Shown piece after piece: positions 14,309 to 47,240 of a DNA stretch of 47,380 nt. Source of the stretch: Candidatus Woesearchaeota archaeon (GTDB taxonomy: Archaea > Nanobdellota > Nanobdellia > Woesearchaeales > SKGA01); assembly GCA_021734105.1 (NCBI GenBank), contig JAIPJP010000008.1, positions 1 to 47,380 of the forward strand. The letters run 5' to 3'. Numbering within the stretch: position 1 is the first letter of the stretch; every line of letters begins with the position of its first letter. Under the pieces are notes generated by a model. That model was not told the origin of the DNA. It saw only the letters and a list, made by a program, of their open reading frames with translations, and searched no databases. The position numbers and the translations under genes were made by a program.

Positions 14309-15136
14309 TTATGTTTTAGAAACTATATAAAATAATTCGTTGGGTATTTGCAAAGTTTCATACGACCACCCTTGTTTAACACAAAATTTCTCAAACCATG
14401 TGCGTCGCTGCGCACCAATAATATTCTTTCCTCCAATAGAAACTAAAGAAAAAGAAACTACAAAAAATGAAGCAGAAATTCTACTAAGAATTAGTTTTGA
14501 AACATTACGTTCACGCAACTCAAAAGAATCAAGTGCTTTAAATAAAAAACAAACATCAACAGCAAATCCTTTCACCCATAATAAAAAATCTTCACTAACT
14601 ACATCAATTGCTTTACCATACCCTTGCTGATTTTTCTTTTTAAAAAAAGTTGTCACCCTAGCCATATCACTAGATGAAAGATCACACGCAATATACTCTT
14701 GAGGACGAAGAGGAAAATAATCAAGCGTGAAAGGTGTAAAACCACACGCAACATCAAGCAAAGAAAATTTTTCGGGCAAGCCCTTCGCTACGAGTTTATC
14801 AAACAACAAATCATAAATCGTGCCTATATAATCATATCGCTCGTTAGTTGATTGGTGCGCTTGCAAAATAGTATCGACGTCATCAAAATTATTTTTTGCT
14901 AATTGTTTTCTCATAAAAACCCCATATAACTCTCGAAGATTTTTTCTTGTTTGAGAAACAATGTTTTTACAAATGGCGCTTTTCTTAAACTTCTCAAATG
15001 TCTCGTATTTATCAGGAATTTGAAAGTTTTTTTGAAGAATAATTTTTTCAATAAATGCATCATCAAGTGTAGCAAGCTCTGGTTTTTCTTTAATGAGCTT
15101 GACAAGTTGTGTAGAAAATCTTAATTGGTTTTCCAT
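14309..15136 (-). CDS. FmrO-type 16S rRNA methyltransferase homologue
   Basis: 275 residues. The order of motifs matches the FmrO/Arm/Rmt family, which methylates N7 of G1405 in bacterial 16S rRNA and confers aminoglycoside resistance: an N-terminal helical domain, HQSTNER at 94-100 (compare HxSTRER), SAM-binding LLDVACGFTP at 126-135 with acidic IACDLS after it, FKALDSFE at 199-206, and SFSLVSIGGK at 228-237 followed by WFEKF. The target in this archaeon is unknown and may be the equivalent decoding-site base. ATG 15136 lies inside the end of the pelota gene (16-base overlap), so the two are co-translated. Family assignment is from my own motif reading. Confidence 0.8.
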   Translation of the reverse strand: MENQLRFSTQLVKLIKEKPELATLDDAFIEKIILQKNFQIPDKYETFEKFKKSAICKNIVSQTRKNLRELYGVFMRKQLAKNNFDDVDTILQAHQSTNERYDYIGTIYDLLFDKLVAKGLPEKFSLLDVACGFTPFTLDYFPLRPQEYIACDLSSSDMARVTTFFKKKNQQGYGKAIDVVSEDFLLWVKGFAVDVCFLFKALDSFELRERNVSKLILSRISASFFVVSFSLVSIGGKNIIGAQRRTWFEKFCVKQGWSYETLQIPNELFYIVSKT

Positions 15137-16167
15137 CGTAATACTCCGACAATGCCACCTAACCCATCAATGGTTTTTGTTGTTGATTCAGCATGTAAAA
15201 ACAGAACCTTCCCTTTGGACGCATCAACAAGTTTAAGAAGTTCATCTAAAGATTCATAGGATTTCTCTTCTTTTTTCTTAAGCAGAAAAGATTCACTTAC
15301 ACCTAATTTCTCAATAGCTCCGCTTTGCGCTGCGCGCGCAACATCATTAAAACCATATGCTAACAAATCTTCATCGAGTTTTTTTAATATTTCACCAACA
15401 AGCGACTCTTCTTTTTGGAGACGTTGATTTGCTAAAAGTTGGTGAAGCTCTGGACGAGTCAATAACCTATTCACGCTTGCAAAAGAAACCTCTGGCGTGG
15501 AAATAAAAATGGCTTGCTTTTTAAGCTCGGGACTTAGTTTTTCTTGCACATATTTTTTCCAAAAATCTGCGCTGGCAAACACTATGCCTGTTATTTTGTG
15601 CTGCGTTCGGTAATCAGTGACTTTTTGCAAGATTTGGCCATACAACGATTCATTAGAAGATTGTTCATATTGTTTTTTTGCTACAGCAACTTTTATCTCG
15701 GCCAGATGTTCTATGCCTGTTTGCCTCACCATAGAGAACAATGCGTGTTCTCGATCATACTGTACAATAATAACTGATTGAGAACTATTTGCTAAAGCTT
15801 CATTAAGTTTTTCAATCAAGTACATGGGCCATAACTCTTTGCGAAGCGTAAATGAATCATTAACGCTAATACCAAATGTGTGATAAGAACCGTGAGGAAC
15901 TTCTTCGGGACCTTTAAGAACAATTCCTTTCACGCGAAGCTCGTTTGCATCAGCTAATTCAACAGATTCTATTTTCAGCGTTAATACCATTTTTTTGCGA
16001 ACAACTTTTGCATTAGTATCAGAACCACCTAATTTGAGCTTTCGCTCAGTCTTCATAGTCATTTCATTACCAGGCTCTATAAGATGAGTGAGATACCATA
16101 AATCATCTGCCAGGGTAACTTTAAGCGATACTGTTCCGTGCTTGAAATCTTTTTTTAAAGATATCAT
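15121..16167 (-). CDS. pelA: Pelota (aPelota), ribosome-rescue factor
   Basis: 348 residues, full length for Pelota/Dom34, which enters stalled ribosomes with an EF1A-like GTPase and promotes splitting with ABCE1. The N-terminal domain shows DDLWYLTHLIEPGNEMTMKT and RKLKLGGSDTNAKVVRKKM. The central domain has VIIVQYDREHALF, and the C-terminal eRF1-like domain has VLFLHAESTTKTIDGLGGIVGVLRW (split here). The GGQ loop is absent, as expected for Pelota. TTTTTTAAA near 16190 is about 26 bases before the start, so the transcript is likely leaderless. It overlaps the downstream methyltransferase gene. Confidence 0.96.
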   Translation of the reverse strand: MISLKKDFKHGTVSLKVTLADDLWYLTHLIEPGNEMTMKTERKLKLGGSDTNAKVVRKKMVLTLKIESVELADANELRVKGIVLKGPEEVPHGSYHTFGISVNDSFTLRKELWPMYLIEKLNEALANSSQSVIIVQYDREHALFSMVRQTGIEHLAEIKVAVAKKQYEQSSNESLYGQILQKVTDYRTQHKITGIVFASADFWKKYVQEKLSPELKKQAIFISTPEVSFASVNRLLTRPELHQLLANQRLQKEESLVGEILKKLDEDLLAYGFNDVARAAQSGAIEKLGVSESFLLKKKEEKSYESLDELLKLVDASKGKVLFLHAESTTKTIDGLGGIVGVLRWKTN

Positions 16168-16260: not shown

Positions 16261-17193
16261 TTACGCATCCTTTAAACCATGTTCAGTTACTTCATAAATA
16301 CATTCTGCATCAGCAAGATTTGGTGCATCGACTAATTTTGCAACGCGCGTTCCTTTTTTTCCTTTCCGTAAATAAATCCGAAACGTGCTGTTGTGTGCAA
16401 CAATATGTCCACCAATTGCTTCAGTTGGATCACCAAAAAATGCATCTGGCTTTGACATAACTTGATTAGTTACAAAAACACAGGCATTATGTAAATCAGC
16501 CATTTTTGCAAGGACGTGCATATGCTTATTGAGTTTCTGTTGACGTTCAGCAAGCGTACCGCGACCAACGAACTCTGCTCGAAAATGTGCTATTAACGAA
16601 TCAACAACAATAACACGAACCTTTTGACCTTCTTTAACTAAATCATCAACTTTTTCAGCAAGCAACATCTGATGATCTGAATTAAATGCTCGAGCAACAC
16701 GAATATTTTTCAAAACATCATCACCATCAAGACCAAATCCTATGGCGAGTTGCTTGATACGCTCAGGTCGAAAAGTATTTTCTGTATCAATATACACTGC
16801 AACAGCATCTGGTTCTTTCACTTGACAACTCACGCAAAGCACGTGCGCAATTTGTGTTTTTGAACTACCATATTGACCAAAACATTCGTTAATTGCACCT
16901 GTTTCAAAGCCACCTTCGAGCATATCATCAAAGCTTTGCGCCCCAGTACTAATCTTAATTACTTTTGCTCGCTTTGCTAAAAGATCTTCGCCTGATTGAA
17001 AACCCATATCCATCATGCTGCGAGCAGCTTGAATCATTTTTCTTGCGGCAACTTCAGTAACTCCGCTCGCATTACCTAGCTCGGCAGGCGTTGCAACAGC
17101 TATTGCCATTAAATTATCAAAGCCGCCCGCTTCAAGCTTTTCTACTGTTGCTGCACCTACGCCCGGTAAATCTTCAACTCGTGGTCCGTTCAT
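16261..17193 (-). CDS. radA: RadA recombinase
   Basis: 310 residues from ATG 17193, chosen because AGGTGA lies 8 bases upstream. RadA forms filaments on single-stranded DNA and catalyses strand exchange. The N-terminal helix-hairpin-helix domain begins PRVEDLPGVGAATVEKL; the RecA core contains Walker B VIVVDSLIAHFRAEF, the L1/L2 region and VTNQVMSKPD, and ends DLADAECIYEVTEHGL-like. Walker A reads GQYGSSKT (106-113): the glycine before the lysine is replaced by serine, unlike the usual GEFGSGKT. The start follows the upstream stop with one base between (TAAAATG), so it is co-translated with the 92-aa gene. Confidence 0.96.
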   Translation of the reverse strand: MNGPRVEDLPGVGAATVEKLEAGGFDNLMAIAVATPAELGNASGVTEVAARKMIQAARSMMDMGFQSGEDLLAKRAKVIKISTGAQSFDDMLEGGFETGAINECFGQYGSSKTQIAHVLCVSCQVKEPDAVAVYIDTENTFRPERIKQLAIGFGLDGDDVLKNIRVARAFNSDHQMLLAEKVDDLVKEGQKVRVIVVDSLIAHFRAEFVGRGTLAERQQKLNKHMHVLAKMADLHNACVFVTNQVMSKPDAFFGDPTEAIGGHIVAHNSTFRIYLRKGKKGTRVAKLVDAPNLADAECIYEVTEHGLKDA

Positions 17194-17194
17194 T

Positions 17195-17473
17195 TTAATC
17201 TTCACCTATAATATCGCCTTCTTCTTTGATGCTAATATATTCGAAAGCTTTATTGAGCACTAACGCTGCTTTGGGCAAATCATTAACTCGAAAAGAATTC
17301 GTTGTTTGCCAGATATTTTCTTTGTCCTTATAGGAACGCTCTAGCGTGATTGTACGAAATAAGTTTGACGTACCATCTTTTGTTTTTCCTTCATTTGCCC
17401 AGATTGTTGCTGTTACTGGACTTGCCCGAAACTTTCTTTCCGGCGTATTTTTATCTATATTTACTTTTTCCAT
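17195..17473 (-). CDS. Small conserved-looking protein upstream of radA
   Basis: 92 residues, beginning MEKVNIDKNTPERKFRASPV, then TATIWANEG, NLFRTITLERSYKDKENIW, TTNSFRVNDLPKAALVLNKA and an acidic end. The alternating strands and aromatic/basic pattern look like a small beta-sheet nucleic-acid-binding fold, and I recall similar small archaeal proteins, but I cannot name the family with certainty. A strong AAGGAGGT precedes the start. It is the promoter-proximal gene of the radA operon, which suggests a role with single-stranded DNA or recombination. Function is inference. Confidence 0.75.
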   Translation of the reverse strand: MEKVNIDKNTPERKFRASPVTATIWANEGKTKDGTSNLFRTITLERSYKDKENIWQTTNSFRVNDLPKAALVLNKAFEYISIKEEGDIIGED

Positions 17474-17635: not shown

Positions 17636-17818
17636 AGTCTCAGAATAGTCTCAGTCTCAAAACAACCAGTCTCAAAGTTGAAAGTTGAGACTGGCGAACA
17701 CCCCCTTATTTCCTATGGAAACCAAATCTTACCAGTCTCAAAAATAAAAAATAGTCTCAAAAATAGTCTCAAAACAGTCTTGAGACAGTCTCTATATGAG
17801 TGAGACTGAGATGAGACT
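17636..17818. repeat. Array of AGTCTCA/TGAGACT motifs in a divergent control region
   Basis: Direct AGTCTCA copies at 17636, 17647, 17653, 17668, 17734, 17753 and 17765. Inverted TGAGACT copies at 17686, 17801 and 17812, plus a one-base variant (TGAGACA) at 17781. That is ten exact copies in 183 bases, mostly in a CAGTCTCAAA context. The array lies between the divergent radA-operon promoter and the TATA box of the helix-turn-helix gene, with the last copy ending 7 bases before AATTTTAAATAA. Spacing is irregular (6 to 48 bases) and there are no unique spacers, so it is not CRISPR. It looks like a multi-site binding array. An in-frame + strand open frame over it (17603-17803) is a by-product. 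Confidence 0.88.
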
Positions 17819-17824
17819 GCGGAA

Positions 17825-17834
17825 AATTTTAAAT
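17825..17834 (+). promoter_or_regulatory. TATA box of the helix-turn-helix gene
   Basis: AATTTTAAATAA-type sequence centred about 28 bases before ATG 17858, indicating a leaderless transcript. The final TGAGACT copy of the array sits directly upstream, where archaeal BRE and activator sites lie. Confidence 0.6.
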
Positions 17835-17857
17835 AAACAAAACCATTTCCGTAAGTA

Positions 17858-18367
17858 ATGAAAGATTTATTTCTCCAAAAAGAGTTCAAAAAGCCAGTTG
17901 AAAAAGAACTCTACAAACTAGTACAACGCGTAGAAAAGCTAAAAAATGCTCTCGTAGAACTTGAAGAAAAAACAGAAGAAACAATAGAAGAAGAAATTAT
18001 AACAGATAACCTAGTTGAAGAACCTATTAAAGAAGCAATTATCACTCAAGAAGAACCAGACTATATCGTCTTAGAAAGCCCAAAACAAAAGCAACAGGTA
18101 AGTATAGCTGCTTTAGAACAAGAGGCAATCGCGACAGTAACGAAAAATAAAAAAACCATTATCAAACAAAAAATCATTGGCGTTGCAAACAAAAACCGCG
18201 TCACCGCAAAACAACTCAAAGAAATCGTCGTTGATAAACATACATATTGCTCTAAAGCAACATTTTATCGTTATCTTACAGAACTACGTAAAGAGCGACG
18301 ATTAGAAGCTATTCAAATAAATAATAAGGAATACCTGTATGGTATCCAAAAAGAATACAATATTTAA
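17858..18367 (+). CDS. Helix-turn-helix protein downstream of the AGTCTCA array
   Basis: 169 residues, no named family recognised. Residues 1-50 form an N-terminal coiled coil (VEKELYKLVQRVEKLKNAL), probably for dimerisation. An acidic Glu/Ile-rich linker follows to about 95. The basic C-terminal domain (about 100-169) reads as a winged helix: RVTAKQLKEIVVDKHTYCS, recognition-helix-like KATFYRYLTELRKE and wing NNKEYLYG. This architecture suits a DNA-binding dimer, and the ten-copy motif array ends just before its promoter, so autoregulation or an origin/partition-type role is plausible but unproven. Its stop overlaps the stop of eL14 on the other strand by four bases. Confidence 0.8.
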   Translation: MKDLFLQKEFKKPVEKELYKLVQRVEKLKNALVELEEKTEETIEEEIITDNLVEEPIKEAIITQEEPDYIVLESPKQKQQVSIAALEQEAIATVTKNKKTIIKQKIIGVANKNRVTAKQLKEIVVDKHTYCSKATFYRYLTELRKERRLEAIQINNKEYLYGIQKEYNI

Positions 18368-44203: not shown

Positions 44204-45757
44204 TTAATTTGCAGCAGCCTTTGCAGCTTTTTCTTTAACTTCTTTTTCTTTTAAGGATTTTAATTCAGCAACAGACGTCGCGTCCGCACGAGTACTAAAA
44301 TTCATCACCTTGATTTCTCTTGATTTTAATGAAAGCGCCAAAATTCTGGCTGGCTGGGGTTCAAGACCTCGCTTTTCTTGATCTTCTGTGATTTCAGTCC
44401 ATCCTGAACTGTTAATACAAGTCACATTACGATAGTTTTTTACTTGCGCCCTGTGAATATGACCTGTTACAAAAATATCTGGAATGGGGTCTATAACAAG
44501 AGGATCTTCTTGGGTGTCAGGAATATATAATGTTGAACCATGTGATGGCGCAAGATGTCGACGTTTAAGTAAATAAATCATAATATCATCCGCAACTTTT
44601 TGACCGCCTGCGGCACGAAGTGATGGAATTGCGTCTGAATAATAAATTAATGAATAACCATGATACATTAACACATCAATACCGGAAAATTCTTTAGTTA
44701 CATCAACAGCCACATAAGCAGGATTAGAAACCAAAATGACATTCTCCATATCCCATAATGCTTTACCATATTCTTTATCAATAGGAAGTTGGGGTTCGGC
44801 AATTCGCCCCACATCGTGATTTCCTGGACAAATAATTATTTTTATGTGAGAAGGAATTTTTTTAAGGTATTCGGCCGCAACATCATATTGTCCTTTACAA
44901 TTATCAATTTCTAAATCTTCTTCTTGACTGGGATAAATTCCAACGCCCTCAATAACATCACCAACAATAAAAACATATTTTACTTTTTTTGCAATTTCTC
45001 GCTGCTCAAGCGTACCTAATTTTCCATTAAGCCAAAGCAAAACCCTATGAAATTCTTTTCGTAAAAATTCTTTTGAACCCATATGAAAATCACCAAAAAA
45101 AATCGCATAATTATCAAGAGGAGATTTTTTTAATTCTTTACTTAGAGGAACGTCGGGCTGCACTATAGTATTAGCAAAAACAATATCTTTACCAGAAGAT
45201 CCCATTACCCCAATTACTTCATCAAGCGTTAAATCTTTTGCTAAGGAAAGAAGTTCAATATTATCTTTATGAATTAATACTTTGGTTGTTCCAGTTAAAT
45301 CTTCTAATTCTAAAATAACATGACCATTTTTTGTTACATCTTTTTCTAATACCATACCAATAATAGATGTTTTTTCTTTTTCTGATCTTCCTCTTAATCT
45401 ATTAATAGATGTTAGACCAACTAATTCTGGACGAGATTTAAGCATTCTCTCTAAAGATTTAAAACGAATGGTAAAATATTTTACAAAATCTTTAACTTGG
45501 TGTTTACCTGGTGTTTTCTCGTGGGATTTAATTATGGAAATTCTACTATTATTTGAGTTTTTAAATTCTTTTTGAGAAATAATACCTAATGCAGAAATAT
45601 CAATCTCGGGAAAATATTTTTTAAAAAAAAATAATAATTGATTATTTCGTTCTTCTTTTTCAGATATACTAAATAATTTTTCAAGTTTATAAGATATATC
45701 TTCATCTATTAATTCTCCTTGATCAATAAGATAATTTGTAACTGTTTTTACATCCAT
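44204..45757 (-). CDS. polB: DNA polymerase D small subunit DP1 (3'-5' exonuclease)
   Basis: 517 residues from ATG 45757; a longer opening overlaps orc1. DP1 is the proofreading subunit of PolD. The N terminus is helical, an OB fold (VTKNGHVILELEDLTGTTKV) follows, and a calcineurin-like phosphoesterase domain has FFGDFHMGSKEF, VGDVIEGVG, ICPGNHDVGR, LMYHGYSLIY and VTGHIHRAQV, the intact metal ligands. The C terminus (NFSTRADATSVAEL, then a Lys/Glu/Ala-rich end) is slightly extended. The start lies 2 bases after the orc1 stop (45759), so the pair is co-translated. Confidence 0.97.
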   Translation of the reverse strand: MDVKTVTNYLIDQGELIDEDISYKLEKLFSISEKEERNNQLLFFFKKYFPEIDISALGIISQKEFKNSNNSRISIIKSHEKTPGKHQVKDFVKYFTIRFKSLERMLKSRPELVGLTSINRLRGRSEKEKTSIIGMVLEKDVTKNGHVILELEDLTGTTKVLIHKDNIELLSLAKDLTLDEVIGVMGSSGKDIVFANTIVQPDVPLSKELKKSPLDNYAIFFGDFHMGSKEFLRKEFHRVLLWLNGKLGTLEQREIAKKVKYVFIVGDVIEGVGIYPSQEEDLEIDNCKGQYDVAAEYLKKIPSHIKIIICPGNHDVGRIAEPQLPIDKEYGKALWDMENVILVSNPAYVAVDVTKEFSGIDVLMYHGYSLIYYSDAIPSLRAAGGQKVADDIMIYLLKRRHLAPSHGSTLYIPDTQEDPLVIDPIPDIFVTGHIHRAQVKNYRNVTCINSSGWTEITEDQEKRGLEPQPARILALSLKSREIKVMNFSTRADATSVAELKSLKEKEVKEKAAKAAAN

Positions 45758-45758
45758 T

Positions 45759-46988
45759 TTATAATAAATCCTTAAGTTCAACACCTAACTCTTTTGCAAG
45801 CAATAATTGCACTTTATCAGCTAATTGTGAAGGTACACCCACGTGAATTTCTCGTGTTCTACCATGACGACCTTTAGAAATAACTTTAGCATTAATTAAA
45901 CCAAGCATATCAAGTTCTGCAACAATATCTGAAATTCTGCGTTGTGTAATTGGCTTTAAACCAAATCGAGGACAAAGATCTTTATACACGTCATAGACAT
46001 CACCTGTAAATACCCCTTTATTTTTAGATGTACGAAGTAAAAGAAAAATGGAAAGCATCGTTGCTTGAAATTGTTTTGGTTGTGTTTCAACTACATCAAT
46101 AATTCTATCTCGCTCGATTTTTTCTTCAGCCATATCAATATGTTTAATTTCTATACGATTTGATTTTCCCCGCTCAGCAAGTTCTCCTGCAACACGAAGT
46201 AAATCGATCGCGCGACGCGCATCACCATGTTCTCTTGCAGCATATGCTGCACATTTAGGAATAACCCCTTCATCAAGAACACTTTTTTTAAAAGCAACAT
46301 TAGATCGATTCCTTAAAATATCTTGAATTTGTAGTGCATTATAGGGTGGAAAAATTAATTCTTCTTCAGATAATGAACTTTTTACTCGAGGATCAATATG
46401 ATTAGCAAACATTAAATCATTACTAATACCAATTATTGCAACTTGTGATTGTTTAAGTTCAGAATTAATTCTTGTTAAATTATAAATAACTTCATCTCCT
46501 GTTTTTTTTACAAGCTGATCAATTTCATCAAGAATTAAAATAAGAATTTGGTCTTCTTCATTTAAAGCTGCATAAAAGGATTTATATACTTCATCTGTGG
46601 GTAAGCCCGTTGCTGGAATGTGTTTTCCAAATTCTCGAGCAATTTCTGCAATAAGACGATATTCTGTATCTGCAACACGTTTTAATTTACAATTAATATA
46701 TATAATTTTTACAGCTACATTATTTTCTTTTGCAACATTAGTAATATTATCAACAGTATATTTTACTGAAAGTGTTTTACCTGTACCTGTTTTTCCATAA
46801 ATAAACAGATTAGATGGTTTTTCAAGTTTTAATGCAGGTGCTAAAATTTCAGCAATCTGTTCTATTTGTTCATCGCGATGAGCTATATCTTCAGGAACAT
46901 AAGATGCTTGCATTGACTTTTTATCAGCAAATAATGAATCTTGCTTTAAAAAATTCTTAAAATATGAAGATAATCCTTCTTTTGCCAT
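45759..46988 (-). CDS. cdc6: Origin-recognition/loader protein Orc1/Cdc6
   Basis: 409 residues from ATG 46988 (MAKEGLSSYFKNFL); TATA is about 28 bases upstream, and an in-frame TTG at 47000 is not used. It binds replication origins and loads MCM. The AAA+ part has NLFIYGKTGTGKTLSVKY (Walker A) and ILILILDEIDQLVKKTGDE (Walker B), sensor GISNDLMFANHIDPRVKSSL and the late AAREHGDARRAIDLLRVAGE. The winged-helix domain (from about 300) ends with GLINAKVISKGRHGRTREIH. It heads the orc1-DP1 operon next to a candidate origin. Confidence 0.98.
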   Translation of the reverse strand: MAKEGLSSYFKNFLKQDSLFADKKSMQASYVPEDIAHRDEQIEQIAEILAPALKLEKPSNLFIYGKTGTGKTLSVKYTVDNITNVAKENNVAVKIIYINCKLKRVADTEYRLIAEIAREFGKHIPATGLPTDEVYKSFYAALNEEDQILILILDEIDQLVKKTGDEVIYNLTRINSELKQSQVAIIGISNDLMFANHIDPRVKSSLSEEELIFPPYNALQIQDILRNRSNVAFKKSVLDEGVIPKCAAYAAREHGDARRAIDLLRVAGELAERGKSNRIEIKHIDMAEEKIERDRIIDVVETQPKQFQATMLSIFLLLRTSKNKGVFTGDVYDVYKDLCPRFGLKPITQRRISDIVAELDMLGLINAKVISKGRHGRTREIHVGVPSQLADKVQLLLAKELGVELKDLL

Positions 46989-47240
46989 GGTTTTCCACAA
47001 GAAGCAAGGGGTTTATATATCTATTGCGTATGGAAAATGGTGTATTGTAAAATATATATTCAATGACTAAAATAAACCTATTAATAAAATAATTATCAAA
47101 TAAGAAGATTTATACTCATTAAATTAATATATTTCTGTTAAGAAGTGTCACACCTTAATTTCTTATGGAAAATATAAATATTAAAAAAATGATTGTATAT
47201 ATTAACTGATATTAAAAAAAATTATATAAAATTAATAGAA
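46989..47240. other. Candidate replication origin upstream of orc1/cdc6
   Basis: A strongly AT-rich stretch (about 47040-47240) starting at the orc1 promoter. TTTATATAT (47012-47020) is the orc1 TATA box. TATGGAAAAT occurs at 47029-47038 and 47164-47173, and the related TGTGGAAAAC lies on the minus strand at about 46991-47000; they partly resemble origin-recognition-box cores. Archaeal origins commonly lie next to orc1/cdc6, but no full ORB with a G-tract is seen, so this is a candidate. Confidence 0.5.

Follow-up and report, generated by a model that had tools for sequence, protein, structure and literature searches.

We report that a cluster of AGTCTCA repeats in a Woesearchaeales genome is probably the cognate multi-site platform of the winged-helix protein encoded beside it, a platform that surrounds a box for Orc1/Cdc6, would also serve as the operator of that gene, and may tune replication initiation. 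Repeat and protein are paired in dozens of related species, and the pairing has the look of a replication-control component that has so far escaped description. The cluster lies in the window, the whole stretch of 47,380 nucleotides that was analysed, and the features around it are given in Table 1.

Table 1. Features of the window that bear on the repeat array
Feature	Position	Strand	Remarks
AGTCTCA iteron-like array	17636..17818	both	10 exact copies: 7 (+), 3 (-)
Eleventh core GTCTCA inside array	17781-17786	-	6-mer only
ORB (Orc1/Cdc6-type recognition box) TTTCCATAGGAAATAAGGGGGT	17700..17721	-	array centre
TATA-like TTTTAAATA of winged-helix gene	about 17827..17835	+	just past last repeat; predicted from sequence
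169-aa coiled-coil/winged-helix protein	17858..18367	+	class A, unnamed family; ORF
Divergent conserved 92-aa ORF	17195..17473	-	first in radA cluster; ORF, neighbourhood comparison
radA (RadA/Rad51 family)	16261..17205	-	PF08423, 4.7e-86
eRF1-domain protein	15121..16167	-	downstream of radA; domain match
DNA polymerase D small subunit (DP1)	44204..45784	-	adjoins cdc6; named from sequence and conserved cdc6-DP1 pairing
orc1/cdc6	45759..46988	-	product presumed to recognize the ORB in the array
AT-rich region upstream of cdc6	46994..47169		two ORB-like sites; presumed main origin, from skew in relatives

The array and its central ORB

An exact recount returned the seven AGTCTCA and three reverse copies of the original prediction, ten in a span of 183 bp; when the window was simulated 60 times under a first-order Markov model, no stretch of 183 bp contained more than two. 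Clusters elsewhere in the genome were also checked for, as had been proposed, and the array proved to be the sole cluster: pairs of AGTCTCA within 30 bp of each other occurred nowhere else in the 1.07 Mb of the organism's own Woesearchaeales genome (42 contigs). In two relatives, G121 and G068, the array locus was the densest GTCTCA cluster of either genome, and GTCTCA was neither enriched nor avoided genome-wide (432 copies versus 444 expected and 102 versus 96 expected, respectively). Phasing of the repeats is irregular in the window's own array. No mention of AGTCTCA was found in the literature searched.

The repeats of the original prediction stood, but the ORB at the center of the array had been overlooked. 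The two halves of the array are separated on the minus strand by TTTCCATAGGAAATAAGGGGG, which is the sole zero-mismatch match to TTTCCNNNGGAAANNNNGGGG in the organism's own genome. The site scores 17/20 against the common archaeal ORB motif of DoriC as printed in PMC4164010, versus a simulated maximum of 16. Moreover, ORBs of the pattern TTCCNNNGGAAANNNNGGGG are present in 96 of 193 genomes of the order, and the reversed pattern is present in almost none.

Three kinds of ORB site were distinguished among the loci read, namely, those at cdc6, those at tbp-mcm, and those at a winged-helix gene with a GTCTCA array; the original picture of the locus was thus incomplete in that the ORB-bearing cdc6-DP1 and tbp-mcm loci had not been seen either. 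The cdc6-adjacent loci (n = 39) usually have DP1 alongside and never an array. Where an ORB lies near neither cdc6 nor a winged-helix gene (56 loci), it sits in about 40 cases upstream of the TBP gene, with MCM following. Array loci, defined by at least four GTCTCA copies in 300 bp, have the winged-helix gene in 27/27 cases and cdc6 in 0/27, with part of the 27 collected via the winged-helix gene and L084, L103, L114, L141, and L152 collected via the ORB alone. The array shares the ORB of an archaeal origin of the orc1/cdc6 type and lacks the adjacent orc1/cdc6 gene, which lies 28 kb away in the window and is absent from the array loci. The ORB-like sites upstream of cdc6 in the window (46994-47013, plus strand, and 47150-47169, minus strand) each score 15/20, a value also reached by chance. 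We note that an ORB or ORB-like box precedes the tbp-mcm pair at about 40 loci within L075-L184 and in the organism's own genome (G000:C30:2492-3303).

The neighborhood of the array varies. The radA genes adjoin it in the window's family and at L007 only, and other families have other neighbors. Because that neighborhood is confined to close relatives, control of radA, which had been proposed for the 169-aa protein, was rejected as a general function. An FmrO-like rRNA methyltransferase gene (window positions 14309-15136; PF07091, 3.5e-15) adjoins the gene of the eRF1-domain protein.

Repeat motif and protein family

The predicted structure of the 169-aa protein (AlphaFold, mean pLDDT 83) consists of an N-terminal helix at residues 11-57, a low-confidence linker, and a C-terminal winged helix, in agreement with the coiled coil, linker, and winged-helix-like C terminus read originally from the translation. 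Foldseek returned generic winged helices only, and the family had no convincing match in Pfam, NCBIfam, or PHROG. Comparison with Rep initiator families gave no credible match, the one hit being that of a single member at E = 0.009, and no relation to known partition proteins was detected. Homologues were found in 54 of 98 genomes of the order by single-sequence search, and a profile matched 68 of 236 genomes in a sample of the phylum, 67 of the 68 belonging to the same order. A family tree, built on few columns and with many open forks, places class A and class B on the two sides of one branch with support of 99/99.

A check of homologues for the motif, as originally proposed, came out positive. 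At least two GTCTCA copies lie beside the gene at 35 of 37 class A loci, the loci without an array being L142 and L290, and the motif shifts with the recognition helix, which reads SKA(T/S)FYRY in class A and SKSSFYR(L/I) in class B. At 13 of the 14 class B loci there are at least two copies of GTCCCA or TTCCCA. Counted by repeat copy, class A has 260 GTCTCA versus 10 GTCCCA and class B has 31 GTCTCA versus 62 GTCCCA and a further 52 TTCCCA; over these copies, which are not independent, the Fisher test gives p of about 1e-35. The motif split is not absolute, as at least two GTCTCA copies also occur at 6 of the 14 class B loci. The ORB core was present at no class B locus and at only 22 of the 37 class A loci, and thus the ORB may be dispensable or degenerate in the others. 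Because class B differs in its recognition helix and has mostly GTCCCA/TTCCCA arrays, the repeat tracks the protein. This covariation is the best evidence for binding and strongly suggests it, and we consider it very likely that the 169-aa protein binds the array.

Class B loci have a further repeat. Each of the 14 class B loci (e.g., L023, L026, L028, L030, L036, and L067) has at least three copies of the 8-mer AAAGTGAG/CTCACTTT beside its array, mostly oriented alike and separated by tens to about 200 bp; class A loci never have more than one copy. A second coiled-coil, helix-turn-helix-like gene lies near the class B gene in some cases; it diverges from that gene in L030 and L032 and follows it in the same direction in L028.

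One family member is encoded by a mobile element. L315 is a 3.5-kb circular element with a 127-bp terminal repeat, in which the family gene (L315:237-695) carries phased GTCTCA repeats inside its own coding sequence and adjoins a resolvase and a NikA-like protein; no plasmid records encoding the L315 protein were found. Phased GTCTCA was found in 98 phage contigs versus 52 for a reversed control pattern, and the family protein was present among the phage-array contigs in L315 only, L316 having come via a protein search. The phage arrays are mostly unrelated repeats and were rejected as evidence. Four phage-like contigs (L370, L371, L376, and L389) have dense GTCTCA at the end of a large replication ATPase/primase-like gene.

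Position relative to promoter and origin

Close same-strand repeats are most often spaced 11 bp apart (64 of about 130 pairs), which is one helical turn. Upstream arrays of class A mostly stop about 36 to 54 nt short of the start codon, and archaeal TATA/BRE elements are located at about that distance. Most arrays thus reach up to the promoter of the winged-helix gene itself, and on that ground its autoregulation is likely. Class A repeats are found upstream only at 29 loci, downstream only at 5, and on both sides at 1; the clearest downstream arrays (L071, L141, L293, L299, and L310) have the ORB core downstream as well, and in class B, downstream repeats occur in G013 (L030/L243). Since six class A genomes have repeats also or only downstream, the locus appears to be more than an operator. 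Autoregulation, as originally predicted, fits the promoter-region position of most arrays but is not the whole story.

Whether the array marks the main origin was addressed by skew in two relatives with long contigs, as such a test would need a less fragmented genome than the window's own. In G121, the array was suggested as main origin by raw GC skew and gene orientation, which both have their minimum near 873 kb, at 2.7 kb from the ORB of the array. The raw skew there is driven by gene orientation, however, and the candidate was rejected after correction for gene strand. Strand-corrected third-position GC in G121 had its minimum at 671 kb, which is neither cdc6 nor the array. The strand-corrected AT skew at fourfold sites, run after the third-position test, had its minimum at 470,287, about 0.6 kb from the cdc6 ORB at 469,655, and its maximum near 1,066 kb, and its sign was unchanged at the array. 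In G068, read to 800 kb of 1.0 Mb, the strand-corrected GC residual has its peak at 497,101, beside cdc6; at the array (379,605), the slope of the residual changes but its sign does not. The skew inflection of an archaeal oriC was thus absent from the array in both relatives. Because the corrected extrema lie at cdc6 and no sign change occurs at the array, the array is probably not the main origin, and we favor cdc6 as the main origin in G121 and G068. No description of an origin in Woesearchaeota or DPANN was found in literature searches.

Function of the locus

How the locus might act can be outlined. The coiled-coil/winged-helix protein would load along the direct repeats, which in relatives are typically 11 bp apart, and the protein-coated repeats would flank the central ORB on either side while Orc1/Cdc6 binds the ORB itself. 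The array would double as operator of the winged-helix gene, as its usual end at that gene's promoter suggests. Through the ORB, Orc1/Cdc6 would be connected with the locus much as it would be with cdc6 and tbp-mcm, and the locus would most likely sense or tune replication initiation, either by titrating or pairing with Orc1/Cdc6 or by organizing origin-proximal DNA. A role in replication control, to which the ORB points only indirectly, has in our estimate an even chance. Best supported is a cognate pair of protein and array with an Orc1/Cdc6 box at its center, probably autoregulated in most species, that belongs to the set of ORB-carrying replication genes and acts away from the main origin. 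Only tentatively do we propose the fuller form, a dedicated Woesearchaeales replication-control system in which a new winged-helix family coats its own array round an Orc1/Cdc6 box off-origin and adjusts initiation and in which the sister class has swapped the motif.

Other readings explain part of the evidence. An ordinary autoregulated transcription factor gene, with an Orc1/Cdc6 site in its promoter and a function in gene regulation only, would suit arrays that usually end at the gene's own promoter, and the ORBs ahead of cdc6 and tbp-mcm would suit a regulon under ORB control. About ten copies, placed to either side of an ORB, exceed the needs of an operator, however, and the downstream repeats of the six class A genomes and of class B G013 also make this reading unlikely. 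Many phased sites in one cluster per genome where checked, an array that may precede or follow the gene, a coiled coil in the protein, and the extra oriented CTCACTTT series of class B would instead agree with a centromere-like or nucleoid-organizing site, which the protein would coat to segregate or anchor the chromosome, perhaps together with a partner encoded elsewhere. Such a site leaves the ORB unexplained, the family matched no known partition protein in the searches, and no ParA/SegA-type ATPase, adjacent in ParABS and SegAB systems, is encoded among the neighbors scanned in the window; we regard it as quite unlikely.

A second replication origin, where the winged-helix protein would be a WhiP-like or plasmid Rep-like initiator working with Orc1/Cdc6 at the ORB, might be read from an ORB flanked by phased direct repeats with a linked winged-helix gene, from the tendency of the whole module to change sides, moving from upstream of the gene to downstream of it, from the circular L315 with its family member and internal repeats, and from the raw G121 minima near the array. 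The corrected extrema of G121 and G068 lie at cdc6, however, with no sign change at the array, and cdc6 is absent from the array loci. We therefore hold a second origin to be quite unlikely, although the array may still be a minor origin used weakly or conditionally.

To our knowledge, very few archaea have described accessory origin proteins. A comparable case is UBP-ucm of Sulfolobus origins (PMC12141716), where an accessory protein binds a motif of its own next to the ORBs, but UBP has more than 300 genomic sites with a short single motif (PMC12141716), whereas here one many-site cluster is linked to the protein's own gene. At WhiP-oriC3 of Sulfolobus (PMC4010727), a winged-helix gene also adjoins a putative replication site; oriC3, however, has no ORBs (reviewed in PMC4010727), and the searches run with our protein gave only generic winged-helix matches, with no homology to WhiP among them. 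Archaeal origins with ORBs adjoining orc1/cdc6 (PMC4010727, PMC4164010) resemble the array in their canonical-type ORB and intergenic position. The array locus differs in having no cdc6 and in carrying what would be another protein's cognate array, and here cdc6-DP1 has its own ORBs and, in relatives, the skew extremum. Iteron plasmid replicons also have direct repeats spaced by about one helical turn, a linked winged-helix gene, and some inverted copies near the promoter, but the array locus has no credible Rep family match, is chromosomal and ORB centered, and shows no skew sign change in two genomes.

A 2025 paper on UBP raises the question of analogues in divergent lineages (PMC12141716). 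The present locus, from an order that is large and uncultured, offers a concrete ORB-tied protein-DNA pair, and class A set against class B supplies a ready test of its specificity. Moreover, the likely main origin of two Woesearchaeales genomes is placed at cdc6-DP1, where the skew extrema give precise computed positions, near 470 kb in G121 and near 497 kb in G068.
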